DNA of 64,000 nt from Aquilaria yunnanensis. Taxonomy: Eukaryota > Streptophyta > Magnoliopsida > Malvales > Thymelaeaceae. This document shows, piece after piece, positions 22,385-63,320 of this stretch (position 1 is the first letter of the stretch; every line of letters starts with the position of its first letter). The DNA lies in NCBI GenBank assembly GCA_039654915.1, contig CM077593.1:40766501-40830500 (forward strand), written 5' to 3'. Made by a program: the position numbers and the translations under genes. Below the pieces are notes generated by a model. That model was not told where the DNA came from. It searched no databases and saw nothing but the letters and a program-made list of their open reading frames with translations.

Positions 22385-22615
22385 CCTCGAAGACACCAAA
22401 AGACAGCCTGTGACTTCGGGCAAAAGGTCTATCTTCAGTACAAGGTTATCCTATTTCCCCTCGCCACGAAGACACCAAGAGATAGCCTGTGACTTCGGGC
22501 AGAAGGTGTATCTTCGGCACACGGACAGCCTATCTTCTCGCGCCTCGAGGACGCAAAAAGGACTGCCCATCGCTTCAGGCAGAAGAAGGCGTCTTCGGCG
22601 CAGATATCACAACCA
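22385..22615. repeat. B1 three ~79-bp repeats upstream of antisense promoter
   Basis: Three imperfect copies, marked by TGACTTCGGGC at 22411 and 22490 and a diverged CGCTTCAGGC at about 22571. They lie between the antisense TATA box and the PPT. B2 has the same three, and A2 and A3 have two related 80-bp copies. Confidence 0.8.
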
Positions 22616-38224: not shown

Positions 38225-38465
38225 GAAATCACCGAGGAAAGCAAAAGTAAGTTTTTCCAAAGTCTCTTGAGCGAATATGTTCGGGACAAGGGAAAGCAAA
38301 AGTAAGGTTTTCCGAAGTCTCTTGAGCGAATATGTTCGGGACAAAGGAAAGCAAGAGTATGGTTTTCCGAAGTCTCTTGAGCGAATATGTTCGGGACAAA
38401 GGAAAGCAAAAGTATGGTTTTCCGAAGTCTCTCGAGTGAATTATGTTCGGGACAGAGGGAAACAA
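38225..38465. repeat. B2 55-bp tandem array
   Basis: Four copies with GAGCGAATATGTT (or GAGTGAATTATGTT) at 38269, 38324, 38379 and 38434, a period of exactly 55. Same place and unit as in B1. Confidence 0.9.
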
Positions 38466-38592: not shown

Positions 38593-40908
38593 CTAAGGAA
38601 CCTCGGCGTCTTGAGAACTGCCAGCCTCTGTGCTTTTGTCGGTAGCCTTAGGCGCCGGGAGAGAAGGAGGCAGTTTCAAGTGCTCGATCTTGGACCAAGT
38701 CCACCGAGGCTCCTTGGGGATGTTCATGCCTTCCAGGAAGGAGAGGTCAAAATCTGGGAACTTCTGCAGAATTTGGTGCCGAACAAGACAGAAGCCGTCT
38801 TGAAAGCCCAACTTCGTCATATCATCGGACTCCCGCTTCTTGACCGCCAAATCTGCATAGTCCTTCTCTAGATCCGCGTAATCCTTCTCCAGATCCTTGA
38901 GCTTTCTCTTCAATGCCTTCATCTTCTTCTTCTCTTCTGAAGGCTTCTTCAGAGATGCGACCTCGGCTTCGAGCTGGGCCTTTTCCTCGAGCATCTTCGC
39001 AAGGATTGCGTCACTTTCTGACTTATCCTTTTGAATCGTTTCTACGATCGAAGTCAGCTCCGCCATCCGAGAGCCGATGTCGGAAAGTTTCTGGGAGGTG
39101 CCTTTCTCAAGTTCCTCTTTCTCTTTTATGAACCCCTCCCGAAGTTCAGCAATTTCCTTCTCTGAAGACTGCTTTAGCTGAGCATTGTCAGCAGCCAACG
39201 CCGAACACTGGGCCTTCGTCTTGGTGTAAAGGTCCCAGAGTGACGCCCTCCTTTCTGTCTCTCGCGCCACCCGAACACGGAGCAACCCGGCATACCCCAT
39301 CAGCTGCAAAAAAAAGCAAACAAAGGGAAAATGATGCTAAGTAAAAAGCAAAGGTGAAATTGGCACTGAGGAAACAGTGAAGCGTACCTGGGCGGCATGT
39401 TCAGTGAGTTTGGCGGCCAAAGAGATGTCGCCTGGGTAAGCCGCCGTAAGGGCCTTGTAAGAGGCCTCAGTAAACACCCCTTTGCATATTTGCCTGGCCA
39501 TCTCGGGACAATCCTCGGAGTGCATATTCATGTCCTCCGTGAACGTCCAGAAGGGCTCCTTCGGAACTTTCCCTGCTGGGACTTGGGCATCCCGAAGGGC
39601 CCTCTTGCGGGCGTGTTCGGCAACCCAGTCAGGAGCGGCCACCTCCGCTGCACAACAAGGCAGGAAAATTGGTTAAGGCCAGAAAACCCTTAAGGATTTA
39701 CAAGAGCGTGCACAACAAGGTTCTTCGACAAAGTACAAACCTGGTAGCACCTCGGTAACGTCGTCGTCAAGAATCGACGTCGCCTCAGTAGAGATCCCCT
39801 TGCCTTTTGTTTGGCGCCGTTCCTCGGCAGAAGGGGTCTCCTCCCCATTGCCCTCCAGAAGAGCATGCGAAGGCGTGGGGCTCTGAGGAAGGACGTCGGA
39901 AGAAGGGACGTCGACAGAAGGAACCTCGGGCAAAGGGGCAGCAAGGTCTTCGGGCTCCTCGCCTACCTCCTCCGGAATTTCTGGAAGAGAGGAAGGAGCA
40001 GCTTTCTTTGCCCGTTTGGAAGGAGGGCCGGCCGAAGTCTGCTTCCGCCTCCGAGAGGCGGCCTTCTTTGTCTGTTCGCCCCTCTCGGCCTACCCGGTAA
40101 AAAGAGCCTTGTAGAAGGCAGCCGCGTCGTCGCCCATCTCTGAAAAAAGAAAAAGAAGATCAGTGTAAGTCCAAGATGAAGTTATGAAGGAAAAAATGAG
40201 AAAGTAACTTACTCTCGTAAAAAGACTCATAAGTCTCTTTCCCCCGAAGTAGTTTCACGAGCCAGGAGTCCTTCCCCGAAGAAGCCGGTTTCGGCATGTT
40301 GAGGTCTGCCTCATGCTCCTTTACCACCTTGAGTTCCCGAAGGACCTCTTCGGTCATGAGCCTCCAGTTAATCGGAAAGGGGTAAAGGGCATGAGGAGAA
40401 ACCTCGGCAGCCCAGTCAGAGATAGCCCGGATGCGCCTGTCGAAGTCCTCAAAGATAGGTGCTACGTCGGCATCTAGCAGTATCTTCGGGTCAACAACAT
40501 CCATCTTGAGCCTCCCCTGAGCCCACTTGGTCGGGACGTGCGACCAAGTCTCCGACTTCTTCAGGAAAAAGAATTTTTGTTGCCACCCTCGCCAGCTGTC
40601 TTTGGTGGCGAAGGTGAACGTATACTTTTTGCTCCCGGATCCCCGAGGTAGCATAAAGTAGAAGCCACCCTTCGGGACCACGAAAAGCTTGTAGTACTAG
40701 AGAAAAACTGCAAAGTGAGGCTTTATTTTGAAAACGCCGCACATACAGAGGAAGGCGTTGAAATAGCAGTACGAGTTCGGTGGAAGTTGGTTAACGGCAA
40801 TGCCATGGAAGTTGCAGAACGCGCTAACCATCTCCGGGGGGGATACCGAAGTCCGGCCTTCAGATGGGCTCGGAAAACGGTGATTTCATCACTTCGGTTG
40901 GAGAAAGG
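38593..40908 (-). pseudogene. B2 antisense gene, main part
   Basis: Exon 1 continues here from 40903 to 40213 after the A2 insertion. Exon 2 is 40139-39741, exon 3 39647-39388 and exon 4 39303-38593, with exon 2-4 lengths equal to B1 (399, 260, 711). Breaks are the A2 insertion in exon 1, a one-base loss in a G-run near 40836-40842, TAG at about 40697 in exon 1 (where B1 has CAG, before YYKLF) and TAG near 40092 in exon 2 (CAG in B1, after ALFTG). Splice sites remain intact. Confidence 0.88.
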
Positions 40909-41775
40909 TGATGGCCTAAGGCCTCATCGTTGTGAGTCATGATGACTGTTGAGGAGACTTCTAGGAGGAAGAACGCCTGGAAGGTGGATCGCCTCAAGGA
41001 GAGTACCTGAAAAGCTGGTAAACAGGGTTAGGAGGCCCCCGGAGTGTTTTTCCTGGGGGGGAGCCTCCGACGCCCAAGTCAGTGGTGGCCGGAAGAAGGA
41101 GAAAGTCACTAGCTCAAAGAGAAAGGCAGAAAAGTCTCGCCTGGTATTTTCTCAGAGTGTGGGAGCTGTATATCCGGCCTGCCAACCTCCTGTCAAGTAT
41201 TTATTTCCTGTATATATAGGAATACCTAGCACGTTCAGATCATGACACGTGTGCGGTCGGATGCTCTTGAACGTCTGGGCGTAGGGGACAGATAGTTGGT
41301 AACTAGATGGCTTCGAGCCTTGTGCTGAGACGGGCCATGATATGATTCTGATGGCGTCTGCGCGTCAGGGCGACTTTTTACGTCTGTGGTGGGACGTGTC
41401 AGAGGCTTCCTTAAATGCTTCCTTAAATGCGCCTGCCGTACTCCCGAGGTCCCTGGGCGAGGTCGTCCTCTAGTTCGGACAGAGCCTCTTCGGGAAGCCT
41501 ACCCTCAGTTCAGGGGTTCCCAGTTCCAGGGGGTTCCGCCTTCGGGGATATCATATTCGGGCAGCAATGTCTGGTGCCACTTTTCCGAAGGCGCGCTGTT
41601 CACAACCTTGGGGGGCGAATAGAGTCCTCAAGTTTTACTGGCGTGCCGAGGCTCGGAGCTCTCCGGCTATCTCCCGAGGTGCATGATTCCACCTGTTCCC
41701 GGGAAGCGCCAGTTCTTCTGGCCATTGTTGTGGCAGGGTGTTCGGCCAGATTGAGGCGATAGCCTTTGGCTATCA
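40909..41775 (-). repeat. A2 3' LTR (867 bp)
   Basis: In plus orientation TGATGGCC...GGCTATCA. Nearly identical to 51198-52064 and to the A1 and A3 LTRs. Confidence 0.95.
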
Positions 41776-41788
41776 CATGCCCCCCTCT
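41776..41788 (-). other. A2 polypurine tract
   Basis: Minus-strand AGAGGGGGGCATG lies directly before the 3' LTR. Confidence 0.85.
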
Positions 41789-41869
41789 GGAAAGCCGAAG
41801 TGAAGACTTCGGTTTGCATCTCTTTCCGAGGTTGTCGTTGGGAGTCTCGTTGGGAAGCATAACCTGTTC

Positions 41870-42030
41870 CGAGGTCGCACCTTTTGCCCGAGGGTCTGGG
41901 CTGTTCGGTCTTGGCCTATTCTTTGGTGTCTCCGAGGCAAAGCCTGTACCGAAGATACACCTCTTGCCCAAAAGTCATGGGCTGTTCAGCCATAGCCTGT
42001 CTCTTGGTGTGCTCGAGGTGGCCTGCTTTT
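41870..42030. repeat. A2 two 80-bp repeats upstream of antisense promoter
   Basis: Two imperfect copies marked by TTGCCC at 41884 and 41964 (80-bp period), each followed by GGGCTGTTC and TCTTTGGTGTC or TCTTGGTGTG. Related to the 79-bp repeats of B1 and B2. Confidence 0.75.
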
Positions 42031-42319
42031 TATTTCTGCAGGTCTGATGGCCAAGCGTGTCAGACTGAGCGGCGCGTCTCCATTTCTCAGGGATGTCAAA
42101 CGACGTGTCCCAATCAGGAGGCGTGTCCCGGTTTTCCAGGCACGTTTGGGGAGGCAGGTCCCCCATTTCTGCGCAGCGGTTGACACGTGGCTTCTTGCCA
42201 TTGGAGGAGAGGCGCGTCATTTATAGAGGGCGCGCCTTTTCGGGTGCAGCGGGCAGTCACGGCGACGGTTCGCCTCCAATGGGTACTTATGATGTTCTTT
42301 CGGTTACCCACCTTTGGCC

Positions 42320-42327
42320 TATAAATA
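42320..42327 (+). promoter_or_regulatory. TATA box for A2 antisense gene
   Basis: TATAAATA within GGCCTATAAATAGCCC, 306 bp upstream of the antisense ATG; the same sequence occurs in A3. A CACGTG lies at 42184-42189. The position implies transcription that starts inside the element and is independent of the LTR. Confidence 0.65.
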
Positions 42328-42625
42328 GCCCATTCCATCATAAGTCCCACTTACTGTTTTTCTGCTCTTTTTCTGCTCTCTCTCTGCTTTGCCCTCTGTT
42401 CTTGCGTTTTATCTTGCTTTCTGTGGCGGAGCTTCTTTAATCAGAGCTTTTCCTACCAACTTTCACGACGGCGTCCTCAGGCAAATCTTTTGGTGGGTTT
42501 TGATTTTCAGAGTACTCTGATTCCTCTATTTTTCTGAGTTTTTCTGGAAAACTGTTGTTTTTTCCAAACTCGTCTTCTGAGTTTTTTCTGGAAACTATTT
42601 TCTTTTCCATCTCAAACTCTTTTTC

Positions 42626-44974
42626 ATGTCTGCGATGCCTGTTCCCGAGAGCTGGAAACCTCTTCTGGCCCATCCTTGCTGTACCACCCCCGAAAAACTA
42701 GAGAGGTGGAAGAAAAAATTCTTTCTTCCGTCTTACGCTGTGACCAGACTGCCTCGTTCTAGCCATTTTGCTTTTTCAAACCGTGGCGACGAGGTTACTG
42801 TCTTCCGAGCCCAACTGAAGGCCGGACTTCGGTATCCTCCCCCGAAGGTGGTTTGTGAGTTCTGCCAATTCCATGGCATTGCTGTGAACCAGCTTCCCCC
42901 GAACGCGTACTGCTATTTTAACGCCTACCTCTGCATGTGTGGCGTGTTCGGGATAGACCCCCACTTCATCATTTTCATGCAGTACTACAAGCTCTATGTG
43001 GTCCCGAAGGGTGGCTTCTATTTCCTGCTGCCTCGGGGATCCGGGAGCAAAAAATTCACCTTCACCTTCGACACGAAGGATAGCTGGCGGGGGTGGCAGC
43101 CTAAGTTCTTTTTCCTCAAGGTGGATAAGAACTGGTCTGATGTCCCGACCAGGTGGGCTCAGGGAGTGCTGAACGCAGACGTCGTTGATCCGAGGATGCT
43201 GCTGACCCCACCGTTGGCTTCCGTGTTTGCGGATTTCGACGCCCGCATTCGGGCAGTCGCTGACTGGGCTCCCGAGGTCTCTCCTCGTGCTCTTTACCCC
43301 TTTCCTATCAACTGGAGGTTGATGACCGAAGAAGTCCTTCGGGAGCTGAAAGTGGTTAAGGAGCATGTGACTGACCTCAATATGCCCGCTCCTGCCATCG
43401 CCGGGAAAGACTCCTGGCTGGTCAAGCTCCTTAAGGGGGAGACTTCTTTCGAAACTTTTGCCGAAAGTGAGTAATCTTCCATCCCTTTATACTTTTTCCT
43501 CGGACTTACGCTGATATTTCTTCTCTTTTTCAGAGATGGGCGATGGGGCTGCCGCTTATTACAAGGCCCTCTTTTCTGGCCAAGTGGAGAAGGGGGAGCA
43601 GACAAAGAAGGCGGCTTCCCGAAGAAGGAAGACGACAGGGGCGGGACCCTCGGCGAAGCGAGCTAGGAAGGCTCTCCAGCCTTCTCAGCCAGAGCTTTTG
43701 GAAGAAGAAGCTGGCGAAGACGCTGGTCTTGTTGAAATTCCACCGGCCGAGGTCCCCGCTACTTCCGCCGAGGTGCCTCCTCTCGACCTCGAGGCCCCCA
43801 GAAACACTGTAGTGGTAGAAGTACCCACCGCCGAGGAGCGGTACCGGCAAAAGGGTAAGGGTCTTTCTTCCGAGGGGCCCGAGGATCCCGAGGACACTGT
43901 CTCCGAGGTTCTTCCAGGTATGCCTTTAGGCGAAGTTCAGCTCCTTTTCCTTTCGCGAATTTTTCTTCTGCTCCTAACTTCCTTCCTAATTTCAGAGGAG
44001 CCCCTTGCTGCTGGCTGGAGGGCCATTCATGAGAGGAAACGAGCCCTCCGCGATGCCTTAATCCCTGAGGGGAAGATCCCCTTGGAGCCCTTTTGGACAA
44101 TCACGGAGGATATGAATTTGCTCTCCGACGATTGTCCAAAAATGACAAAGGAGATTTGGAAGGGGATCACCACTGACGCCTCCTTCCGGGCCATTGCGGC
44201 GGCTCACCCGGGGGATAATACCCTCGCCGCAAAAGTCACCGAGCATGCTGCTCAGGTATAGTCTTTACACTTTTTTCCTCAATTTTCTAAGTGTTTAGAC
44301 TTGTACTAACCTGGACTTTTGCCTTGCCGTAGCTGCTGGAGTACGCTGGTTATCTCCGAGTTCGGGTGGCCAGACAGGCTGCCTCCAAGGATGCGACTTC
44401 GCGGGAACTCAGTGAAGCGAAGGCTTCGCTTGCGAAGGTGATCGCTAGCAACCAGCAGCTGACAGCGGATTGTTCTCAGCAACTTGCTGCCGTTCGGGAG
44501 GAGTTCTCGAAGAAAAGAGAAGAACTTGAAAAGGACTCCTCCCGGAAGATTGCCGACCTCGGCGACCAAGTAAAGGGGCTGCTCGCCGCCAACAAAGATC
44601 TTGTCAAGGACAAGGCTGTTTCTGACAGTCTTGCGTCGAGGTTGACGGACGAGAACAATGCTCTTCAAGCCGAGGTCGAGGCTCTGAAGAAGGAGTCCGG
44701 AGAGACGCTGGGGATAAGCGAGCTCGAAGAGGAAGTTGCTGAGCTGAGGGACGAGGTCAATGTCCTTGGCGTTCAAAAACGTAGTTCTGATAACATGGCC
44801 AAGGTCGCCTTTCAGGACGGCTTCTGCCTCGCTCGGCACCAGGTGCTGCAGAGGTTCCCAGATTTGGACCTCTCTTTTCTGGAGGGCCTAAATATTCCTG
44901 AGGGACCTCGGTGGCAGTGGTCCAAGGTCGAGCATCTGAAGCTTCCTGGTCTTCGTCCGCCCGGCTCTCCCTAG
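42626..44974 (+). CDS. A2 antisense four-exon gene, 708 aa, intact
   Basis: Exons 42626-43466, 43534-43917, 43996-44255 and 44333-44974; introns of 67, 78 and 77 bp with GT-AG borders and a CTAAC branch-site match at 44306. Joined length is 2,127 nt with phases conserved. Residues 1-280 are a compact domain (PESWKPLLAHPCC, NQLPPNAYCYFNAYLCMCG, KDSWRGWQPKFFFLK) of the 'putative gypsy type transposon' family (Transposase_28, from memory). Residues ~282-408 are charged, with a bipartite basic cluster at ~305-326 resembling an NLS. Residues 409-495 contain ERKRALRDALIPEGK. Residues ~510-640 form a coiled coil, followed by QDGFCLARHQVLQRFPDLDL. The gene converges on gag-pol with 756 bp between stop codons. 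Function is unknown; the family name does not imply a shown transposase, and no DDE motif is visible. A spliced transcript is predicted, not observed. Confidence 0.88.
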
Positions 44975-45104
44975 TTTGTTTTAGGGCTCCTCTTATTTTT
45001 CTCCTTCGTGCTCCTTCTTTGGACACTTCTTTTGTAAGGCAGCGTTTGCTCTAAATGAACAATCTTTTCGGCTAAGTCCTTTCTTGCAAGTTTCTTTATA
45101 TCCA

Positions 45105-45605
45105 CTGTCCCGAACACGTTTGGTCAAGAGACTTTCGGAAAACCTGTAACCAAAGAAACTTTTTACCTTCCTTTGTCCCGAGTGTGCTCACTCAAGAGAC
45201 TTTCTGGAAAGTTTGCAAAAATTTGGCTAAGTCTTTTGCAGGCTTTTTGTTTCCTTTTATCCCGAACATGTTTGCTCAAGGGACTTCGGAAAAGTTTTAG
45301 CCAAATTTTTCTGTCTTCCTATTGTCCCGAGCATATTTGCTCAAGGGACTTAGGAAAATTCTCACGAGATTGCTCATTTCCCTCTTTCCCGAGCATGTAC
45401 GCTCAAGGGTGTTTGGAAATTATCTCTGCTTTTGTTTTGGCGTGCACTATTACGAGATTCTTGCTTTCCCTTTTTTCCGAGCATGTACGCTCAAGGGTGT
45501 TCGGAAAATTTTCTCTGCACTGATTATGCCGAGTACCTTTGCAAGATTCTTGTTTCCCATTTTTCCCGAGAATAGTGGCTCAAGGGCCTTCGGGAAGTCA
45601 CATCT
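45105..45605. repeat. A2 palindrome-containing repeat array between convergent genes
   Basis: Seven copies of a ~25-bp core, CCCGAGCATGTNYGCTCAAG, start at about 45109, 45177, 45261, 45326, 45388, 45476 and 45565 (spacing 62-88 bp). The core pairs GAGC with GCTC, and CCC with GGG around a short loop. A3 has seven copies with the same spacing; B1 and B2 carry the same core in reverse as 55-bp tandem repeats. Confidence 0.85.
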
Positions 45606-45730
45606 GCTTTTTTTGTGGCGAGCACCTTCGCGGAATTCTGTCTTGGACAATTTGGTATACTTAAGAATTTTTCTCAAGACCATTCTGTACTTAGAATATT
45701 TCTTGTACAATATATCTCTTCCGCTCAACC

Positions 45731-48700
45731 TTAGGCGTAGAATTTTTTCAAGGCGTCTGAATGCCAAGTGTTTTTCAATTCTACGCCTTCGGCGTCGCCA
45801 AGCCTATACACGCCTTTCCGTACTTCGGCGAGAACCAGATAAGGTCCTTCCCAATTTGCGCGAAGTACGCCGTGAGATGGCCTTCGGGGTGCAAAGTCGG
45901 CCTTTCGGAGAACGAGGTCTCCTTTTTTGATTTCTTTTGGCCTGGCTTTTAGGTTGATAGCCGCGGCCACTCTTTGCTGGAAAGCTTTTCTTCTCAGCCC
46001 GGCTATTTCTCTGTGTTCGGTCACAAGGTCGAGCTTAGTTCTCAGACCGAGGTCGTTTCCACCTTCATCAAATACTTGCACCCGTATTGAAGGCTGAACT
46101 ATCTCTATTGGGATAATGTTCTCTATTCCAAAGACGAGTGAGAAGGGAGTTTCCCCTGTGGCTCTTCGTGGCATCGTTCGGTAGCTCCACAATACACTTT
46201 GGAGTTCTCCTGGCCATTTCCCCTTGGCTTCCCCAAGTCTCTTTTTCAGGCCATCTTTTATGGTCCTGTTTGATACTTCCACCTGCCCATTGCTTTGGGG
46301 GTGAGCTACTGGGGCGAAGTGCATCTTTATTCCGAGGTCGCTGATGAATTCCTGGAATCCTTTGTCTATGAACTGGGATCCATTGTCAGCTACTAGTACC
46401 CTCGGTATGCCAAATCTGCATACGATGTTTTTCCATACGAACTTTTGCACTTCTTTTGCCGAGATAGTTGCTAGTGGTTCTGCCTCTACCCACTTTGAGA
46501 AATAGTCCACTGCTACCACGCAGAATTTCACGCCTCCCGGTGCTGTGGGGAGTGGCCCAATGAGGTTTATACCCCAGACTGCGAAGGGCCAAGGATAGTC
46601 TGCCGACGTTACCATTTCCGAGGGTATCCTCTGGATTTTTGCATGTCTCTGGCAACTACCGCACTTCTGGACGAACTGCCTTGCGTCCTTTCTCAGGGTA
46701 GGCCAGAAGTATCCTTGGCGGAGTATCACTGCTGCAAGGGCATCAGTTCCAATGTGCGAGCCGCACATGCCTTCGTGAACTTCTTCGAGAACCATCTCAG
46801 TATCCTCTTCGCCCACACATCTCTGCAGCGGATTTGCATATCCTTGCCGATATAACTCTTCACCAATCAGGAAGAATCTTCCGGCACGTCTTCGCAGTCT
46901 TGCAGCATTGCCAGCGTCTTCGGGAAGCTCATTCTCTGCGAGGTATTTCTTTATGGGGTCCTTCCACCCTGTTCCCGAGGACGTTACGCTTAGCACGGAG
47001 ATGCTTGGATGGTCTAGCACCTCGGTGTATGTTTTGGACTTCGCTAAGCAATCTGCCTCAGTGTTATTCCGCCGGGGTACATTTTCGATCCGCACGGCGT
47101 CAAACTCTTGGATGAGTTTTGTTACCAGCTCGTGGTATTTTGCCAAGATTGGGTCCTTCACCCCATAATCTCCTGCCGTCTGCCGAACTACCAGCTGGGA
47201 ATCGCTGTGAGCCCTTAAGTTTCTCACGCCAATCTTTCTGGCCAAGCGTAATCCCGCTATGAGGGCTTCATACTCAGCCACATTATTGGTGACGTTGAAG
47301 CTGAACTTGATAGCCTTCATCACCTCTAGGCCTTCGGGTCCTCTGATAACTATTCCAGCTCCCTGGTGTACGGACCCCGAGGCTCCATCAACATGCAAGG
47401 TCCATTCTGGCTCACCTTCTTTCGGATCTGAGTGGTTCTCCTCAGTGGTGGGTATTTCGGCGATAAAATCTGCCAATACTTGGGCTTTTATGGCCTTCCG
47501 AGGCTCATAGGTCATTTCATGTTCGCCAAGCTCTATGCACCACTTGGAGAGCCTTCCCGAATGATCAACTCTCTTCATAACATCCCGTAGTGGTAGACTA
47601 CTTCGGACGATGATGGGGTGAGCCTGGAAATATGGTCGCAGTCTTCTTCCTGCAAGCACCAAGGCGTATATAGCTTTTTGAAGCAAAGGGTACCTGACTT
47701 CGGCGCCATGCAGGGACTTGCTGACGTAGTAGACCGGCCATTGTTTCGGCCCTTCTTCTTTTATCAGGACCGAGCTCACGGCCTTTTCTGTGACGGCGAG
47801 GTACAGTACGAGGGGTTCTCCCTCCCGAGGTTGTCGCAGAGTCGGCAGGCTGGCCAGGTAGACTTTGTGTTCTTCCCAGGCCTTTTGGCAATCTTCATCC
47901 CAGGGATGATTGTTTCTTCCGAGGTCGCCTTCCATCTTTGCTGCCTTTGTGAGGAATTTGAAGAAAGGTCTACACCTATCTCCGTACCTGGAAATAAACC
48001 TGCTCAGAGAGGTTATTCTTCCGGTTAGTCTCTGCACGTCTTTGACTGTGGCAGGAGTTTGGAACTCAAGCAGAGCCTTAATCTTCTCAGGATTGGCGTC
48101 GATGCCTCTTTCGGATACCATGTACCCAAGGAATTTTCCCGACGTCACCCCGAAGATACACTTCTCGGGGTTAAGGCGAATCCCGAAGGCTCTGAGCTTT
48201 TGGAAGGTTTCCTCCAAATCTGCAACGTGGTAGCCGGGCAGCTTGCTTTTTACTATCATATCATCAACATATACTTCCATGTTTCTCCCCATTTGGTCCT
48301 TAAAGACCTTGTTCATCAGTCTCTGGTAGGTGGCTCCTGCATTTTTCAGCCCGAAGGGCATTCTGATATAGCAGTACGTTCCTCCCTCGGTGATGAAGGC
48401 AGTTTTCTCTTCATCTTCGGGGTCCATCCTTATCTGATGGTAGCCGCTGAAGGCATCTAGGAAGCTCAGGAGCCCGTATTCGGCCGTTGAATCTACCAGT
48501 TGATCTATTGGCGGGAGGGGAAATGAGTCTTTCGGGCAAGCATCGTTCAAGTTTCTGAAATCAATGCACATCCGGAGTTTGCTGCTACCTTCTTTTGTGG
48601 CAATGACCACGTTGCTTAACCATTCGGGGTATTTGACCTCCCTGATAACTTCAGCATCCAATAGGCGCTGGACTTCGGTTCTCACGAAGTTGCTTTTGTG

Positions 48701-51229
48701 GGCTGAGATGCTTCGTTTCTTTTGCCTGATAGGTTTTGCTTCCGGGCTTACTTTGAGGCTGTGCTGTATTATGCCAGGGTTCACTCCTGGCATGTCTTTC
48801 GGCGAGTAGGCAAACAGATCTTTATTTTTCAGCAGAAAGGATACAAGAATTTCCTTATCACCTTTGGCCAAGCTATTCCCTATTCGGGTAGATTGTCCTG
48901 GGACAAGATCTACTGCTTCCATTTCTGCTTCTGCGGGATCTCTTTCTTTGCCTTTCTCCTGCACCTTTGCCTCCACTATTTGTGTAGAGTTGTCTGCCGG
49001 AGCCTTTCGTGCTTTTACAAACACCTTTCTTACCTCGGCTTGGTCGATAAAGACCTCTGCATCTCCATCCTTGGTGGCGAATGTGACAGTCAAGTACTTC
49101 ACATCGGGGCGAATGTGCAGGTTCCCCTGAGTCTTCCTTCCAAGGATGGCGTTGTACGAAGACGGGACCTCCATGACGATGAATCTTGCCATTGTGGACG
49201 CGTACAACTCAGCCGCTCCGTCTACCGAAGTGCCTTTTATCATTAAAGGGAGGTCGATCCATCCGAGGACGGGTAGTTCCGATGGTCCAACGCCGAAGGT
49301 GGGCGTGGTGACAGGTTTAAGTTCGCTGCTGGAGATGCCCAAGCTCGGCAGTAAGTGCGAGAACAGGACGTCAGTATTTGAGCCATCATCGAGCAACACT
49401 CTTTTGACGTCCCAGTTCCCTATTCTCGCCATTATCAGCAGCGGGTCGTCGTGGGGGAAGACGACGCTGGAGCCATCTTTGCGAGCCAATTTCTTTGATG
49501 GACTTTGATACTCCATAACCGCAATTTCTCTGGCCTTCCGCTTTCTTTCCGAGGATGGGAGCCCCGTGGTAATGGTTTGGATGACCCCTACTGGAGGTGG
49601 AAGGCGCCTTTTTGGACTTCTGTTTCTCCGCCTGTCTGAGTCATAGTCCTCGTTTTCGGCCCTTTCTTCCTCCTCTTTTCTACCTTTTGGGGAGGGCATC
49701 CGCAGGTATTTGCGAAGCTGGCCCTGTTTGATCAGCGACTCTATGTACTTCTTCAGCTGGAAGCAGTCTTCGGTGTCATGACCGTGGTCGCGATGAAACT
49801 GGCAGAACTTCTTGGCATTCTTCTTATTATCGGCGGCCATGGCCTTTGGCCGCCGAATCTGCGTCCCTTGCCTTTCCAGCGCCATGAGAATGTTGGTCCG
49901 TGTCGTGCTCAAGGGTGTGAAACTTTGAGGTTTCTTTCCTCGCATTCGCCGTGGTCGACCTGTGTGTTCAGAAAGATGCCGAGCTTGCTGGCTGGACCCT
50001 TCGGCGCGGTGATGATCAGACTTCGGCCCCGCCATCCTCAATTCCTCGGCTGTCATGTGCTGCTCTGCCCTTCGGTAAAATTCTCCGAGGGTCTCCGGGG
50101 GGTCCTTTGAGAACTCGTAGAACAGCTGTGAGTCACGCCGAAGGCCCCGTGTCATAGCGAGGATGCGGATTTCGGGCCAGAAGTCCGGGACGCTGAGTGC
50201 TTCCCTGTTGAATCGTTCGACATAGTCTCGGATCGTCTCTCCGTTTCTCTGCTCTATGTCGAACATCTGCACAGGCATTTTGGCCGTCGGCCTGCTCCCA
50301 ATGAACTGCTGGGTAAAGGCTGTGGACAACTCCTGAAACTCAGTGATAGTCCCTGGGGGCAAGGAATTGTACCATGCTGTTGCTGGGCCCGTGAGGGTGA
50401 CTTCAAAGCATTTGCACATGGTAGCGTCATCAGCTCCGTGCATTATCATGCTCCGCCTGTACTTCGTCAGATGGGCCTGTGGATCAGTCCAGCCATCATA
50501 GATCTCCAGCCTAGGCACTCTGAAGTCGCCTGGCATAGCTGCCTCAACGACGGTGCGAATAAATGGGGAGCCATCTTTGCATAATGCCCCCGACAGCCTG
50601 TCCCAAACGGGTTTTCTGGTCACTTGCTTCTCCACTCTGTCCAGCCGTGCCAATATCCTTTCCATAAGCGCAGTGGCGCTAGGACCATTTTCGCGGGAGG
50701 GAGATCGACGGCGCCTTTTCGGGGAGCGAGTTCGGCGCGGAGGGGTCAGGGACTTCGCCTCGGGCGACGAACTGCTTCGCTGTGAGACTCTCGGTCGCTT
50801 GGACCCGGTTTGTCCCACAGGCCGTTTCCCGAGGGCTATATCTTCTGTGGATGATTCTCCGCGAGGCTCTTCACTTCCTGAACTGCGGTGTGTAGACTTG
50901 GGGCTTCTCTCCCGAGGGCATGCTGATGAGGAGGGTTTCTGGGCCCGTGACTGCTGTGGCCATCTTCGGTCGATTTGCTGAGTCATTTCAGCAACGACCG
51001 AGCGCTGAAAGTCCCTCAAGAAGCTCATGGTGATTACCAGAGGGCGGTCCTCCTCGGGCGTAGAAGTCTCTGGGAGTGTCTGCTCAGCAGCCGGTTGTAT
51101 CTCAGGCGCGGACGAGGACCTTGGGAGTCCCTTGTCCTTAGAACGCCGAGTCTCAACGACGGCAATCTGCGAGCGGGTTCCCACAGACGGCGCCAAATGA
51201 TGGCCTAAGGCCTCATCGTTGTGAGTCAT
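45731..51229 (-). CDS. A2 gag-pol polyprotein, 1,832 aa, uninterrupted; integrase D to N
   Basis: The start is the ATG at 51227-51229 inside the 5' LTR; the frame opens upstream only at non-ATG codons. Order (approximate residues): Gag with SR-rich region, capsid-like AHLTKYRRSMIMHGADDATM block and a C-x2-H-x4-H-x4-C knuckle (CQFHRDHGHDTEDC); protease DDGS at 614; RT with YVDD at 987-990; an RNase H lacking its acidic residues (YLAVTEKAVSSVL); a second RNase H with D, E, D, D in VDGAS, AEYEAL, SDSQL and EADCLA; integrase with the HEGMCGSH...CGSC zinc site, then N1555, D1615 and E1651 (35 residues between the last two); a C-terminal GPYLVLAEV module. Position 1555 (codon AAC, 46565-46567, in WGINLIGP) is Asp in B1 and B2. 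Gag and Pol are one frame, so a protease-cleaved polyprotein is expected. Confidence 0.95.
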   Translation of the reverse strand: MTHNDEALGHHLAPSVGTRSQIAVVETRRSKDKGLPRSSSAPEIQPAAEQTLPETSTPEEDRPLVITMSFLRDFQRSVVAEMTQQIDRRWPQQSRAQKPSSSACPRERSPKSTHRSSGSEEPRGESSTEDIALGKRPVGQTGSKRPRVSQRSSSSPEAKSLTPPRRTRSPKRRRRSPSRENGPSATALMERILARLDRVEKQVTRKPVWDRLSGALCKDGSPFIRTVVEAAMPGDFRVPRLEIYDGWTDPQAHLTKYRRSMIMHGADDATMCKCFEVTLTGPATAWYNSLPPGTITEFQELSTAFTQQFIGSRPTAKMPVQMFDIEQRNGETIRDYVERFNREALSVPDFWPEIRILAMTRGLRRDSQLFYEFSKDPPETLGEFYRRAEQHMTAEELRMAGPKSDHHRAEGSSQQARHLSEHTGRPRRMRGKKPQSFTPLSTTRTNILMALERQGTQIRRPKAMAADNKKNAKKFCQFHRDHGHDTEDCFQLKKYIESLIKQGQLRKYLRMPSPKGRKEEEERAENEDYDSDRRRNRSPKRRLPPPVGVIQTITTGLPSSERKRKAREIAVMEYQSPSKKLARKDGSSVVFPHDDPLLIMARIGNWDVKRVLLDDGSNTDVLFSHLLPSLGISSSELKPVTTPTFGVGPSELPVLGWIDLPLMIKGTSVDGAAELYASTMARFIVMEVPSSYNAILGRKTQGNLHIRPDVKYLTVTFATKDGDAEVFIDQAEVRKVFVKARKAPADNSTQIVEAKVQEKGKERDPAEAEMEAVDLVPGQSTRIGNSLAKGDKEILVSFLLKNKDLFAYSPKDMPGVNPGIIQHSLKVSPEAKPIRQKKRSISAHKSNFVRTEVQRLLDAEVIREVKYPEWLSNVVIATKEGSSKLRMCIDFRNLNDACPKDSFPLPPIDQLVDSTAEYGLLSFLDAFSGYHQIRMDPEDEEKTAFITEGGTYCYIRMPFGLKNAGATYQRLMNKVFKDQMGRNMEVYVDDMIVKSKLPGYHVADLEETFQKLRAFGIRLNPEKCIFGVTSGKFLGYMVSERGIDANPEKIKALLEFQTPATVKDVQRLTGRITSLSRFISRYGDRCRPFFKFLTKAAKMEGDLGRNNHPWDEDCQKAWEEHKVYLASLPTLRQPREGEPLVLYLAVTEKAVSSVLIKEEGPKQWPVYYVSKSLHGAEVRYPLLQKAIYALVLAGRRLRPYFQAHPIIVRSSLPLRDVMKRVDHSGRLSKWCIELGEHEMTYEPRKAIKAQVLADFIAEIPTTEENHSDPKEGEPEWTLHVDGASGSVHQGAGIVIRGPEGLEVMKAIKFSFNVTNNVAEYEALIAGLRLARKIGVRNLRAHSDSQLVVRQTAGDYGVKDPILAKYHELVTKLIQEFDAVRIENVPRRNNTEADCLAKSKTYTEVLDHPSISVLSVTSSGTGWKDPIKKYLAENELPEDAGNAARLRRRAGRFFLIGEELYRQGYANPLQRCVGEEDTEMVLEEVHEGMCGSHIGTDALAAVILRQGYFWPTLRKDARQFVQKCGSCQRHAKIQRIPSEMVTSADYPWPFAVWGINLIGPLPTAPGGVKFCVVAVDYFSKWVEAEPLATISAKEVQKFVWKNIVCRFGIPRVLVADNGSQFIDKGFQEFISDLGIKMHFAPVAHPQSNGQVEVSNRTIKDGLKKRLGEAKGKWPGELQSVLWSYRTMPRRATGETPFSLVFGIENIIPIEIVQPSIRVQVFDEGGNDLGLRTKLDLVTEHREIAGLRRKAFQQRVAAAINLKARPKEIKKGDLVLRKADFAPRRPSHGVLRANWEGPYLVLAEVRKGVYRLGDAEGVELKNTWHSDALKKFYA
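51177..51197 (-). other. A2 primer-binding site
   Basis: Minus-strand TTTGGCGCCGTCTGTGGGAA abuts the 5' LTR and is read in the gag frame as HLAPSVG. Confidence 0.82.
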
Positions 51230-52064
51230 GATGACTGTTGAGGAGACTTCTAGGAGGAAGAACGCCTGGAAGGTGGATCGCCCCAAGGAGAGTACCTGAA
51301 AAGCTGGTAAACAGGGTTAGGAGGCCCCCGGAGTGTTTTTCCGGGGGGGGAGCCTCCGACGCCCAAGTCAGTGGTGGCCGGAAGAAGGAGAAAGTCACTA
51401 GCTCAAAGAGAAAGGCAGAAAAGTCTCGCCTGGTATTTTCTCAGAGTGTGGGAGCTGTATATCCGGCCTGCCAACCTCCTGTCAAGTATTTATTTCCTGT
51501 ATATATAGGAATACCTAGCCCGTTCAGATCATGACACGTGTGCGGTCGGATGCTCCTGAACGTCTGGGCGTAGGGGACAGATAGTTGGTAACTAGATGGC
51601 CTCGAGCCTTGTGCTGAGATGGGCCATGATATGATTCTGATGGCATCTGCGCGTCAGGGCGACTTTTTACGTCTGTGGTGGGACGTGTCAGAGGCTTCCT
51701 TAAATGCTTCCTTAAATGCGCCTGCCGTACTCTCGAGGTCCCTGGGCGAGGTCATCCTCTAGTTCGAACAGAGCCTCTTCGGGAAGCCTACCCTCAGTTC
51801 GGGGGTTCCCAGTTCCAGGGGGTTCCGCCTTCGGGGATATCATATTCGGGCAGCAATGTCTGGTGCCACTTTTCCGAAGGCGCGCTGTTCACAACCTTGG
51901 GGGGCGAATAGAGTCCTCAAGTTTTACTGGAGTGCCGAGGCTCGGAGCTCTCCGGCTATCTCCCGAGGTGCATGATTCCACCTGTTCCCGGGAAGCGCCA
52001 GTTCTTCTGGCCATTGTTGTGGCAGGGTGTTCGGCCAGATTGAGGCGATAGCCTTTGGCTATCA
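51198..52064 (-). repeat. A2 5' LTR (867 bp)
   Basis: Carries the promoter: minus-strand CACGTG and, 43 bp downstream, a TATATATA box near 51501. It also carries the gag start codon (51229). Confidence 0.95.
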
Positions 52065-52204
52065 AAAGGAAATTGGTCAGGACGGGGCAACCTCGTCACA
52101 GAGTAAGAGGGTAAGAAAAACTTTTTCTTCCACTTCGCTAGTTTTGCCGGAGTAGTGCAACAGGGGTGAGAAAGAAGAGGTTGCCAACTCTCGGGAACAG
52201 GCAT
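52065..52204 (-). pseudogene. B2 antisense gene, first part of exon 1
   Basis: Starts with the ATG at 52202-52204 (MPVPESWQPLLSHPCC) and runs about 45 codons to the A2 insertion; it resumes at 40903. The frame is open here. Confidence 0.85.
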
Positions 52205-52734: not shown

Positions 52735-52965
52735 CCTCGAAGACACCAAAAGACAGCCTGTGACTTCGGGCAAAAGGTCTATCTTCGGTACAAGGTTATC
52801 CTATTTTCCCTCGCCACGAGGACACCAAGAGACAGCCTGTGACTTCGGGCAGAAGGTGTATCTTTGGCACAGGGACAACCTATCTTCTCGCGCCTCGAGG
52901 ACGCAAAAAGGGCTGCCCATCGCTTCAGGCAGAAGAAGGCGTCTTCGGCGCAGATATCACAACCA
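52735..52965. repeat. B2 three ~79-bp repeats upstream of antisense promoter
   Basis: Copies marked by TGACTTCGGGC at 52761 and 52840 and a diverged copy near 52921; same arrangement as in B1. Confidence 0.8.
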
Positions 52966-55922: not shown

Positions 55923-58319
55923 ATGCCTATCCCTGAGAGCTGGCAGCCTCTTCTTTCTCACCCTTGTTGCACCACTCCTGCAAAACTAGAGAAATGGAAG
56001 AAGAAGTTCTTCCTTCCCTCCTATGCCACTACGAGGTTGCCACGTTCTGACCAATTCAGTTTTTCAAACCGTAGTGACGAGGTTACCGTTTTCCGAGCCC
56101 AGCTGAAGGCCAGACTTCGGTATCCTCCGTCGAAGATGGTTTGCGAGTTTTGCGATTTCCATGGCTTTGCCGTAAACCAACTTCCACCGAACTCGTACTG
56201 CTACTTCAACGCCTTTCTTTGTATGTGTGGCATTTTCAAAATAGAACCCCACTTCATTCTTTTTCTGCAGTACTATAAGCTCTTCGTGGTCTCGAAGGGT
56301 GGCTTATACTTTATGCTACCTCGGGGATCAGGGAGCAAAAAATATAAGTTCACCTTTGCCAACAAGGATAGCTAGTGAGGGTGGCAACAAAAGTTCTTTT
56401 TTCTGAAGAAGGAGGAGGCCTGGTCGCATGTTCCGACCAAATGGGCTCGGGGAAAGCTGAAGATGGACGTCGTTGACCCGAGGATATTGCTGACTCCCGA
56501 GTTGGCACCTATCTTCACGGACTTCGACAGACGGATCTGAGCAGTCTCCGACTGGGATTCCGAGGTCCTTTTGCGCCCTCTTTACCCCTTTCCCATTAAC
56601 TGGAAGTTGATGACCGAATAGGTCGTTCGGGAGCTAAAGGTGGTAAAGGAGCACAAGACGGACCTCGAGATGCTGGCTCCTGCCATTGCCGGGAAAGACT
56701 CCTGGCTGGTGAAGCTTCTTCGGAAGGAAGAGTCTTACGAAAGTTTTTATGAAAGTAAGTTATCTCCAAAATTTTCACCCTGGACTCACACTGATGTCTT
56801 CTTTCCTTTTCAGAGATAGGCGACGACACTACTGCCTTCTACAAATCACTTTTCCTCGAGCAATCCGAGAAAGGTGAGCAGATGAAGAAGGCCCTCTCCC
56901 GAAGATGGAAAATGTCTGGGGCTGGGCCATCTGTGGCCAAACAGGCGAAGAAGGATGTGCCCCCTCATCTCCCAGAGATTCCCGAGGAGGTGGGCGAAGA
57001 GCCCGAGGCTGCTGCTGTCCCGTCGGCCGAGGTCGTTGCTGACCTCACTGCTCAGAGTCCCACTCCTTCGGCGACTCTTCTAGATGCTTTGGTAGAGGCC
57101 CCTTTTGCCGAAGAGCGACGTAAATTCAAGGGCAAGGGGATTTCTACCGAGGAGGCTTCCGACGACGACGTCACCGAGGTGCCAGCAAGTTTATTTTTCT
57201 AACAAACTGTGGTGCCTTCTTTTTTGTGGGCTTTGAGATTTTCTTGCCTTGACCAGTTTTTTGTTTTTGCCATGCAGGGGAGATATCATCTCCGGGTTGG
57301 GTGGCTGAGCACGCCTGAAAGCGGGCCCTTCGGGATGCCCATATCCCGAAGGGGAAGGTCCCGAAGGAGCCTTTCTGGACGTTTACGGAGGACATGAATT
57401 TGTACTCCGGAGACTGCCAGCAAATGGCTAAGGAGATCTCAAAGGGGGTGCTTACTGAGGACTCTTTCAAGGCCATCGCGGAGGCTCACCCTGACGATGA
57501 CTCCCTTGCCGCAAAGGTCTCTGAGCACGTTGCCCAGGTACGCCTCTCGGCTCTGTGTTTTTCCTTTTGATTTCCTCTAAATGTCTGCCTCTTCTTCTTT
57601 GCCTTACTAACTTTGTCTTTGTTTCTCTGCAGCTGCTGGGGTATGCCGGTTTCCTCAGAGTTCGGGTGGCGAGGCAGGCGCTGTTTTGAGCCTCGACCTT
57701 AGGCACCATAGACCAATATAAGGCCAAGTGCTCGGAACTGGCCACACAGAATGCGCAGCTGGCTCAAGCTGCAGAAAAGGAGGTTGCTGCCGTTCGGGAG
57801 GAGTTCCTGAAGGAAAAGGAAGAACTTTTGAAGGACTCCTCCCAGAAGATTTCTGACCTCGGCTCCCAGGTGGCGGAGCTGATTTCGGTGAACGAGGCAG
57901 TTCAAAAGGAGAAGTCAGAATCTGAGGCTCTCCTGGCGAAGGTGCTTGAGGAGAAGGCCACGCTTCAAGCCGAGGTCGAGTCTTTGAAGAAGGAGCCGGA
58001 GAAGAAGAAGATGAAGGCGCTGAAGAAGAAGGTCACGGATCTGATGGAGGATCTTGAAGACCTCGGTGTCGAGAAGGTCAAATCTGACCAGATGACCAAA
58101 GTTGGTTTTCAGGACGGGTTTTGCCTCGCTCGGTATCAAGTTCTTCAAAGGTTCCCAGACTTGGACCTTTCTTTTTTGGAGGCTTTGAACATTCCCGAGG
58201 GGCCTCGGTGGTCTTGGTCCAAGATTGAGCATCTGAACCTGCCTCCTTCGCTTTCGGCGCCGAAGGTTGTGGAAAAGGATGCAGGAGCAGGTGGCTCCCG
58301 AGACGCCGAGAATCCTTAG
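55923..58319 (+). pseudogene. C antisense gene, decayed
   Basis: Same four-exon plan: 55923-56754, 56814-57188, 57278-57537 and 57633-58319 (832, 375, 260 and 687 nt, phases still compatible). Exon 1 has two adjacent stops after NKDS (TAG TGA near 56373, for Trp-Arg), TGA after RRI near 56537 and TAG near 56618. Exon 2 has ATA for the first Met and a donor with A at -1. Exon 3 has TGA after EHA, and exon 4 has TGA after RQALF. The coiled-coil part of exon 4 (57828-58319) is open. Several stops are CGA to TGA. Non-functional. Confidence 0.88.
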
Positions 58320-60338: not shown

Positions 60339-62687
60339 ATGTCTGCGATGCCTGTTCCCGAGAGCTGGAAACCTCTTCTGGCCCATCCTTGCTGTACCAC
60401 CCCCGAAAAACTAGAGAGGTGGAAGAAAAAATTCTTTCTTCCGTCTTACGCTGTAACCAGACTGCCTCGTTCTAGCCATTTTGCTTTTTCAAACCGTGGC
60501 GACGAGGTTACCGTCTTCCGAGCCCAACTGAAGGCCGGTCTTCGGTATCCTCCCCCGAAGGTGGTTTGCGAGTTCTGCCAATTCCATGGCATTGCTGTGA
60601 ACCAGCTTCCCCCGAACGCGTACTGCTACTTTAACGCCTACCTCTGCATGTGTGGCGTGTTCGGGATAGAGCCCCACTTCATCATTTTCATGCAGTACTA
60701 CAAGCTCTATGTGGTCCCGAAGGGTGGCTTCTATTTCCTGCTACCTCGAGGATCCGGGAGCAAAAAATTCACCTTCACCTTCGACACGAAGGACAGCTGG
60801 CGGGGGTGGCAGCCTAAGTTCTTTTTCCTCAAGGTGGATAAGAACTGGTCTGATGTCCCGACCAGGTGGGCTCAGGGAGTGCTGAACGCAGACGTCGTCG
60901 ATCCGAGGATGCTGCTGACCCCACCGTTGGCTTCCGTGTTCGCGGATTTCGACGCCCGCATTCGGGCAGTCGCTGACTGGGCTCCCGAGGTCTCTCCTCG
61001 TGCTCTTTACCCCTTTCCTATCAACTGGAGGTTGATGACCGAAGAAGTCCTTCGGGAGCTGAAAGTTGTTAAGGAGCACGTGACTGACCTCAATATGCCT
61101 GCTCCCGCCATCGCCGGGAAAGACTCCTGGCTGGTCAAGCTCCTTAAGGGGGAGACTTCTTTCGAAACTTTTGCCGAAAGTGAGTAATCTTCCATCCCTT
61201 TATACTTTTTCCTCGGACTTACGCTGATATTTCTTCTCTTTTTCAGAGATGGGCGATGGGGCTGCCGCTTATTACAAGGCCCTCTTTTCTGGCCAGGTGG
61301 AGAAGGGGGAGCAAACAAAGAAGGCGGCTTCCCGAAGAAGGAAGACGACAGGGGCGGGACCCTCGGCGAAGCGAGTTAGGAAAACTCTCCAGTCTCCTCA
61401 GCCAGAGCTTTTGGAAGAAGAAGCTGGCGAAGACGCTGGTCTTGTTGAAATTCCACCGGCCGAGGTCCCCGCTACTTCCGCCGAGGTGCCTCTTCCCGAC
61501 CTCGAGGCCCCCAGAAACACTGTAGTGGTAGAAGTACCCACCGCCGAGGAGCGCTACCGGCAGAAGGGTAAGGGTCTTTCTTCCGAGGGGCCCGAGGATT
61601 CCGAGGACACTGTCTCCGAGGTTCCTCCAGGTATGTCTTTAGCCGAAGTTCAGCTCCTTTTCTTTTCGCGAATTTTTCTTTTGCTCCTAACTTCCTTCTC
61701 ACTTTCAGGGGAATCTCTTACTGTTGGCTGGAGGGCCATTCATGAGAGGAAACGGGCCCTTCGTGATGCCACAATCCCTGAGGGGAAGATCCCCTTGGAG
61801 CCCTTTTGGACAATTACGGAGGATATGAATCTGTTCTCCGACGATTGTCCGAAGATGACCAAAGAGATTTGGAAGGGGATGACCACTGATGCCTCCTTCC
61901 GGGCCATTGCGGCGGCTCACCCGGGGGATAATACCCTCGCCGCAAAAGTCACCGAGCATGCTGCTCAGGTATAGTCTTTACACTTTTTTCCTCAATTTTC
62001 TAAGTGTTTAGACTTGTACTAACCTGGACTTTTGCCTTGCTGTAGCTGCTGGAGTACGCTGGTTATCTCCGAGTTCGGGTGGCCAGACAGGCTGCCTCCA
62101 AGGATGCGACTTCGCGGGAACTCACTGAAGCGAAGGCTTCTCTTGCGAAGGTGATCGCCAGCAACCAGCAGCTGACAGCGGATTGTTCTCAGCAACTTGC
62201 TGCCGTTCGGGAGGAGTTCTCGAAGAAAAGAGAAGAACTTGAAAAGGACTCCTCCCGGAAGATTTCCGACCTCGGCGACCAAGTAAAGGAGCTGCTTGCC
62301 GCCAATGAAGATCTTGTCAAGGACAAGGCTGTTTCCGACAGTCTTGCGTCGAGTTTGACGGACGAGAACGCTGCTCTTCAAGCCGAGGTCGAGGCTCTGA
62401 AGAAGGAGTCCGGAGAGATGCTGGGGATAAGTGAGCTCGAGGAGGAGGTTGCTGAGCTGAGGGACGAGGTCAATGTCCTTGGCATTCAAAAACGTACTTC
62501 TGACGACATGGCCAAGGTCGCCTTTCAGGACGGCTTCTGCCTCGCTCGGCACCAGGTGCTGCAGAGGTTCCCAGATTTGGACCTCTCTTTTCTGGAGGGC
62601 CTAAATTTTCCTGAGGGACCTCGGTGGCAGTGGTCCAGGGTCGAGCATCTGAAGCTTCCTGGTCTTCGTCCACCCGGCTCTCCCTAG
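60339..62687 (+). CDS. A3 antisense four-exon gene, 708 aa, intact
   Basis: Exons 60339-61179, 61247-61630, 61709-61968 and 62046-62687 (841, 384, 260 and 642 nt), identical in length and phase to A2, with GT-AG introns of 67, 78 and 77 bp. Exon 1 differs from A2 by one residue (Glu for Asp in FGIEPHF) but by 14 silent changes. Exons 2 and 3 vary more, with about six changes in the charged linker and about seven in exon 3, some by intron-adjacent drift. The coiled coil and the QDGFCLARHQVLQRFPDLDL end are kept. Function is unknown, as for A2. Confidence 0.88.
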
Positions 62688-62817: not shown

Positions 62818-63320
62818 TTGTCCCGAACACGTTCGCTCCAAGAGACTTTCGGAAAACCTGCAACCAAAGAAACTTTTTACCTTCCTTTGTCCCGAGCAGG
62901 CTCGCTCAAGAGACTTTCTGGAAAATTTGCAAAAATTTGGCTAAGTCTTTTGCAGGCTTTTTGTTTCCTTTTATCCCGAACATGTTCGCTCAAGGGCCTT
63001 CGGAAAATCTTTAGCCAAATTTTTCTGTCTTCCTATTGTCCCGAGCGTATTTGCTCAAAAGGACTTAGGAAAATCTTCACGAGATTGCTCATTCCCTTTT
63101 TCCCGAGCACGTTCGCTCAAGGGTGTTCGGAAATTACCTCTGCTTTTGTTTTGGCGTGTATTTTTGCGAGATTCTTGCTTTCCCTTTCTCCCGAGCATGT
63201 TCGCTCAAGGGTGTTCGGAAAATTTTCTCTGCACTGATTATGCTGAGTACCTTTGCAAGATTCTTGTTTCCCATTTTTCCCGAGCATAGTGGCTCAAGGG
63301 GCTTCGGGAAGTTACAACCG
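62818..63320. repeat. A3 palindrome-containing repeat array
   Basis: Seven cores start at 62822, 62891, 62975, 63040, 63102, 63190 and 63279. The third contains the perfect 12-bp palindrome CGAACATGTTCG (62977-62988); others have CGAACACGTTCG or GAGCATGTTCGCTC. Spacing matches A2 almost base for base. Confidence 0.85.

Follow-up and report, generated by a model that had tools for sequence, protein, structure and literature searches.

We found a four-exon gene running antisense to gag-pol in element A2 of the 64-kb window (the whole stretch of DNA that we analysed). It is quite probably a complete Pol II protein gene of a Retand-type (Tat-lineage) Ty3/gypsy retrotransposon, in which it is situated between pol and the 3' LTR. 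The gene lies at 42626–44974 on the plus strand, as a sequence-only reading of the window had proposed; the proposed junctions (43466/43534, 43917/43996 and 44255/44333) were exact, and the joined frame reads through. Exons of 841, 384, 260 and 642 nt yield 708 codons without a stop, and the three introns (67, 78 and 77 nt) are all GT..AG. The expected intron phases of 1, 1 and 0 were confirmed in A2 and are constant among aligned copies. The terms spliced and self-promoted, as we use them for this gene, stand for putative introns and a candidate promoter that we infer from the genomic sequence.

Gene structure in element A2 and its relatives

All parts of the gene are given here on the plus strand. 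Exon 1 (42626–43466) encodes a Transposase_28 domain (PF04195) at residues 60–124 and is followed by intron 1 (43467–43533, phase 1). Exon 2 (43534–43917) encodes a conserved basic, NLS-like cluster and an acidic/proline linker, and intron 2 (43918–43995, phase 1), 78 nt long in A2, is open in frame there. Exon 3 (43996–44255) encodes a conserved 86-aa block (EPFWTxTEDMN), and after intron 3 (44256–44332, phase 0), exon 4 (44333–44974) encodes a coiled coil, assigned by eye, and a conserved C-terminal block (FQDGFCLARHQ).

The host element A2 spans 40909–52064, with the target site duplication AAAGG on both sides (40904–40908 and 52065–52069). Its 3' LTR (40909–41776, minus strand) and 5' LTR (51198–52064, minus strand) are 868 and 867 bp long and 98.6% identical. 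The gag-pol frame (45731–51316, minus strand) is open over 1861 aa, with Pfam matches to gag, RVT_1, RNase H and integrase; it was counted from stop to stop, and its upstream end extends into the LTR. The insertion site of A2, marked by the AAAGG duplication, lies in a second element, B2 (about 31703–54044), within exon 1 of its antisense gene; this minus-strand gene is consequently split (52204–52055 and 40905–38668).

The same gene had been claimed for six elements of the window, and we located it in all six, with a joined frame that is open only in A2, A3 (60339–62684) and B1 (21866–19477, minus strand). The copy in C (55923–58244) contains stops, the B2 copy is disrupted, and a degenerate copy at 29381–27110 (minus strand), which we took as the element earlier labelled G1, has decayed, though it retains the intron 1 boundaries. 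Exon 3 measures 260 nt in A2, A3, B1, B2 and C, in agreement with the earlier measurement. Elsewhere in the window, two A-type LTRs (10166–11033 and 11318–12184) are separated by 284 bp only, and this closely spaced pair at 10166–12184 possibly represents the remains of an internally deleted element.

Copies in the genome

The genome searched comprised 842 Mb in 345 contigs, and all copies compared come from this one genome. For PF04195, 150 of 10,290 candidate places were considered, and 40 loci without stops inside the match were selected, of which 20 were retrieved (12 of clade I, five of clade II and three of clade III). The A2-family loci (L059–L078) come from the top of a ranking of exon-4 matches in which 150 of 12,743 candidates were scored, and the intactness of this family in our sample is therefore not representative. 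Among these 20 loci, nine were open over 708 codons, nine had a premature stop (one of them having also lost an acceptor), one was without its stop, and one carried a 186-nt in-frame deletion. To five window copies and these 20 A2-family loci, the alignment added 11 divergent members of the same clade, giving 36 rows that were grouped as 22 A2-family and 14 divergent; G1 and the truncated clade I locus L053 were left out, and L001–L038 were not taken singly. The unspliced A2-type boundary between exon 3 and intron 3 occurred at 2,736 genomic places (≤3 mismatches), by which the A2-type family is very abundant in the genome.

A match to pol was present in 17 of 40 loci, and in all 17 pol lay on the strand opposite to the gene, although the pol piece in L055 and L057 may come from another insertion. 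Between A2 and A3, exon 3 (43996–44255 vs. 61709–61968) had a dS of 0.24, with values of 0.05–0.07 in the other exons, and two types can be told apart among the sampled loci where intron 2 ends, a pattern resembling recombination between two subfamilies.

Conservation of introns and reading frame

The structure of the gene, the constraint on it and the lack of retro-processed matches could be established at the sequence level. Intron 1 had GT..AG ends in 36/36 aligned copies, with a length of 59–73 nt, while these ends were present in 32/36 copies for intron 2 and in 31/36 for intron 3; among the 14 divergent rows, splice ends were missing in four for intron 2 and in four for intron 3. A frame break or an in-frame stop was found in every row that kept the ends of intron 1 (36/36) or intron 3 (31/31). 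Intron 2 contained an in-frame stop in 9 of the 10 divergent rows with both ends, its length also breaking the frame in four of the 10. Within the A2 family, intron 2 was a multiple of three and open in 21 of 22 rows, with a stop or frame break in one. It was also open and in frame in the divergent locus L054. Given that retention of intron 2 in those 21 rows would leave the protein unbroken, this intron may be optional in the A2 family.

Exon 3 was 260 nt long in 33/36 copies, and exon lengths kept the frame in all 22 A2-family rows; for the 14 divergent rows, this was the case in 9 for exon 1, 12 for exon 2, 12 for exon 3 and 11 for exon 4. Introns 2 and 3 were less similar than both of their flanking exons in 6/6 pairs. 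Intron 1 was less similar than exon 1 in five of six pairs and equal in one, but it exceeded exon 2 in similarity in every pair.

The genome contained no match to spliced junction 3 (degenerate pattern, A2-like sequence) or to spliced junction 1 of the A2 type, an outcome that does not by itself prove rarity. These searches covered junctions 1 and 3 in A2-like sequence, with the 2,736 unspliced exon 3/intron 3 boundaries as the only positive control. In sense genomic RNA, these introns have the wrong polarity to be spliced and can thus pass through reverse transcription.

The gene has more distant counterparts. In clade II (L039, L040, L041, L043 and L056), the matched part of the TRP28 exon had 23–25% identity to A2 in three loci, and the other two loci gave no tblastn match to the A2 TRP28 exon. 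The clade II gene was antisense to pol in the four loci in which pol was placed (L039, L041, L043 and L056). Inspected by eye, it shows two introns, one in phase 1 that follows the TRP28 exon and one in phase 0 that precedes the coiled coil; the inspection revealed no counterpart of intron 2. Clade III (L044, L045 and L047) was heavily decayed and displayed only acceptor-like places.

Selection on the protein and its domains

Across all four exons, dN/dS ranged from 0.16 to 0.26 in 11 pairs from 8 of the 36 rows, computed without codons holding stops or gaps, and was 0.22 for A2 and A3, the only one of the 11 pairs inside the A2 family. These values are to be read with dS exceeding 1 in many pairs and with some per-exon values saturated; per-exon dN/dS reached 0.56 (A2–A3, exon 2). 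The differences between A2 and B1 fell on first, second and third codon positions in 195, 149 and 335 cases (702 codons). For pol, dN/dS was 0.11 in two pairs (A2 vs. B1 and A2 vs. B2). The low dN/dS indicates that the exons evolve as protein-coding sequence, held less strictly than pol.

The first domain had been likened to the gypsy-type transposon family, and exon 1 indeed matched Transposase_28 (PF04195) with 28.7 bits; matches to this family were weak (26.8–28.7 bits, with a cut-off of 26.2), and they were obtained for 6/6 members of sequence set A1. Of the NLS-like cluster and coiled coil proposed earlier, the basic cluster was borne out by its conservation, while the coil was recognized by eye only, its Pfam coil matches being below cut-off. 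Conserved blocks comprised the TRP28 exon, the basic cluster of exon 2, the 86-aa block of exon 3, and the coil stretch and C-terminal block of exon 4. AlphaFold models had a mean pLDDT of 33 for exon 1 and 48 for exon 3 and were unusable.

Three exon-1 fragments in the protein database were matched, and the joined protein had no match among the best 7,997 candidates scored. One of the fragments, P0003, is 98% identical to exon 1 and is filed under Agrobacterium sp. ST15.13.040; it is probably plant DNA inside a bacterial assembly. Scans of viral contigs and genome contigs with set A1 gave 182 and 118 pattern matches, respectively, with no relatives by tblastn, and a search of solved structures with the same set gave no match up to an E value of 5.

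Start and end signals

The candidate TATA box of the antisense gene, TATAAATA, lies at 42320–42327 on the plus strand. An upstream TATA box had been predicted for A2, A3, B1, B2 and C, and we found it in these five copies at 231–315 nt before the inner ATG (MPVPESW). By a strict pattern, it was present in 18 of the 20 sampled A2-family loci and absent in L060 and L074. By a looser pattern, and with starts placed by tblastn, TATATAA occurred at -261 to -316 in 10/11 divergent loci, and clade II had TCTATAAAAGG at the matching upstream place in 5/5 loci. Upstream of the antisense promoter in B1 (22388–22533) and B2 (52738–52910), a 79-bp unit is repeated about twice.

Downstream of the stop in A2, a poly(A)-signal-like pair at 45030–45059 (plus strand) consists of TTTTGTAA and AATGAA (45054–45059). 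Among 13 copies examined, AATGAA, AATAGA or AATAAA occurred in 11, at 79–169 nt after the stop or after the start chosen for the stretch; no such hexamer was found in L051 and L054. A TTGTAA-like motif was present in 10 of the 13. Taken together, the TATA box and the end signal would equip the gene as a complete Pol II transcription unit.

Hairpin array between the gene and pol

Between the end signal of the antisense gene and pol, a 26-nt hairpin occurs in six copies, at 45107, 45259, 45324, 45386, 45474 and 45563, with a weaker one at 45176 (span 45107–45588, minus strand, which is the genomic-RNA strand). Similar arrays were found in A3 (62890–63302), B1 (19069–19205) and B2 (38262–38451), and at the threshold used, A2 had six hairpins, A3 had five, B1 had three and B2 had four. 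Every one of the 20 A2-family loci had five to seven hairpins, and seven divergent loci (L042, L046, L048, L049, L051, L052 and L058) had one or two each. None was found in C, in L050, L054, L055 or L057, or in any of the eight loci of clades II and III. The spacing of the hairpin varies by family (about 55 to 89 nt), with the core kept.

Pairs were counted in 22 rows (20 distinct) hand-picked from 145 instances; these rows are related by descent, which the shuffles ignore. In the 20 distinct rows, 90% of cells were paired and the covariation score was 0.225, each exceeding all 500 shuffles, and columns 10 and 19 combined as G-C, C-G, G-U and U-A. The count of pairs changed on both sides was reached by 126 of 500 shuffles and that of further pair types by 47 of 500. 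The helix favoured by RNAalifold was shifted and had a covariation term of only -0.36. Pairing was found in 162/180 cells on the genomic-RNA strand vs. 150/180 on the antisense strand, although several individual copies adopt a different fold or fold better on the antisense strand. We also considered the hairpin as part of the antisense mRNA and rejected this assignment, given that the poly(A) signal is predicted to lie ahead of the first hairpin and that the set pairs better on the genomic strand. A search of Rfam with 41700–45800 gave two matches, both below gathering scores, and the better one (E value 0.0013), to a bacterial leader family, was taken as chance. The hairpin, with some covariation, is a lead on a possible target of the protein, though no proof of it.

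Relation to known systems

Among clusters of recently active Retand elements, 97% were reported to have antisense TRP28 ORFs, with tandem repeats beside them and a TRP28 domain seemingly confined to flowering-plant proteins (PMC11963269; Vicient, 2025). By this element type, the host would be a flowering plant. In Table 1 of that survey, TRP28 is still kept by clusters without GAG or RH/INT. An earlier survey, in its accessible part, gave the domain in 23% of Retand elements (PMC6317226). The A2 gene shares with the Retand TRP28 ORF its antisense position between pol and the 3' LTR, PF04195 and tandem repeats in the region, and the lengths of A2 (LTR 868, internal region 9421 and pol to 3' LTR 3954 bp) are within published Retand ranges. 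The sole departure is that the Retand ORF is unspliced by its ORF-finder description, whereas the A2 gene has four exons; the words "intron" and "splicing" are absent from the text of PMC11963269, and "spliced" and "exon" appear in its reference list only.

The gene had also been likened to the antisense ORFs of Grande and other Tat-lineage elements, and this likeness held. In the accessible part of PMC7264820, gene23 of Grande is an antisense accessory gene with its own promoter and a nuclear protein, features for which the conserved TATA box and the conserved basic cluster would be candidate counterparts here.

A bZIP domain was not detected in the A2 protein, with bZIP_2 scoring 15.2 bits, below its cut-off of 22.3. 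HBZ of HTLV-1 is spliced and is a bZIP protein with a leucine zipper. Named in PMC11963269, HBZ can be likened to the A2 gene by description as an antisense gene for a nuclear protein, but it starts in the 3' LTR according to the accessible part of PMC7264820, whereas the A2 gene starts inside the element. CERV of the Ty3/gypsy element Cer1 of C. elegans is similar by description as a nuclear accessory protein that is made from a spliced mRNA and for which leucine zippers are predicted, although its gene is apparently not antisense according to the accessible part of PMC10309623. Introns in plant LTR retrotransposons are shared with Ogre and EVADE, but there they concern gag-pol or subgenomic sense RNAs (PMC12786077, PMC6317226; accessible parts); the accessible part of PMC12786077 calls introns of this type notable exceptions and names no antisense case.

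No description of introns in the antisense gene of such elements was present among the literature matches listed, which were mostly judged by title or abstract start and did not extend to subscription papers. Antisense TRP28 genes that have a promoter of their own had been published (Grande gene23, Retand lineage); the spliced four-exon form would be new among these matches. The spliceosomal introns make entry of the gene as a processed antisense RNA unlikely, and capture as DNA or within a sense transcript would be likelier.

Proposed role and alternative explanations

We infer that the gene is expressed, spliced and regulatory. Antisense transcription would start about 30 nt past the TATA box at 42320, opposing gag-pol, and would end near 45070–45090. 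The three short introns would be spliced out, the second perhaps optionally in the A2 family, and the mRNA would give a protein of about 708 aa with Transposase_28, the NLS-like cluster, the 86-aa block, the coiled coil and the C-terminal block. The template of replication would be the sense RNA and not the spliced antisense mRNA, and the introns would persist because the element copies itself via sense RNA, where the splice signals are on the wrong strand. The protein would enter the nucleus, pair via its coiled coil and regulate the element through promoter or chromatin, or through the genomic RNA. The protein most likely serves to regulate the element, as suggested by analogy with the nuclear Grande protein (PMC7264820, accessible part) and by a proposal in PMC11963269. 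The sequence-only reading had also envisaged help in trans to defective relatives. On this point, the published survey in part suggests the opposite, as the retention of TRP28 by clusters lacking GAG or RH/INT would suit a gene aiding its own copy (PMC11963269).

It is extremely unlikely that the putative introns are plain spacers and that the element has several separate, unspliced antisense ORFs. Such an arrangement would fit the 104 antisense ORFs of 63 cluster representatives that PMC11963269 gives singly, and in A2, exon 1, exons 2–3 and exon 4 each lie within a stop-to-stop open frame of >600 nt. Moreover, exon 2 opens with an ATG codon in 33/36 copies, so that a separate protein could start there, and intron 2 is open in 21/22 A2-family rows. 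However, separate ORFs would leave unexplained why GT..AG ends stand at constant places and with constant phases in 31–36 of 36 copies, why introns 1 and 3 are frame-breaking or contain a stop in all rows keeping their ends, and why two of the introns have clade II counterparts. Exon 4 also argues against a start of its own, as its first Met falls at codon 2 to 155 in seven copies, with no fixed early position, despite conservation from the first codons onward in the alignments. A function of the antisense transcript as RNA, through double-stranded RNA or small RNAs and with the protein secondary, was already proposed in PMC7264820 (accessible part), but we consider it very unlikely here. The amino acids are under purifying selection in each of the four exons and the splice ends are conserved, both of which speak against it, as does the predicted mRNA end at about 45090, which stays outside pol (ending at 45731).

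Two further alternatives accept the four-exon protein and differ in what it would do. VANC proteins of VANDAL DNA transposons counteract host silencing. By likeness of description, the protein studied here could counter the silencing of its own copy and be selected in cis despite the loss of gag-pol, which we regard as possible, if rather unlikely. The basic cluster is conserved, a repeated motif array adjoins the gene, TRP28 is retained in clusters without GAG or RH/INT (PMC11963269, Table 1), and an extra ORF of Vandal protects from silencing (PMC11728184, accessible part). No similarity to any such protein emerged from the searches run here. Alternatively, the protein could bind the genomic-RNA hairpin and aid nuclear export or packaging, as in Rev/RRE or CERV of Cer1, a reading that we hold to be unlikely. 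The 90% paired cells, the covariation score above all 500 shuffles and the larger number of pairs on the genomic-RNA strand are consistent with it, and CERV, from a spliced mRNA of a Ty3/gypsy element, is nuclear and needed for gRNA export (PMC10309623, accessible part). On the other hand, binding is hypothetical, the hairpin rows are related by descent, double-sided changes were equalled by 126 of 500 shuffles, and RNAalifold shifted the helix (-0.36). Several copies also fold otherwise or better on the antisense strand, and the hairpin was not found in C, in four divergent loci or in the eight loci of clades II and III.

Implications

Regulation of the element by its own nuclear protein remains our preferred role for the gene. 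A more far-reaching combination, which we judge quite unlikely, would be a self-contained control module. Its antisense gene, with introns, would encode a nuclear protein that forms dimers, and this protein would bind the neighbouring hairpin of the genomic RNA and so promote export or packaging of the element's own RNA. If true, plants would have in this module a counterpart of Rev/RRE, but with the gene of the protein in antisense orientation, which lets its introns outlast reverse transcription.

For Retand-type elements more generally, antisense ORFs that are now catalogued separately may be exons of one gene. If so, ORF-finder surveys would fragment the protein, a TRP28 ORF and a "Smc-like" ORF could be its two ends, and a single cloned ORF would represent a fragment only.
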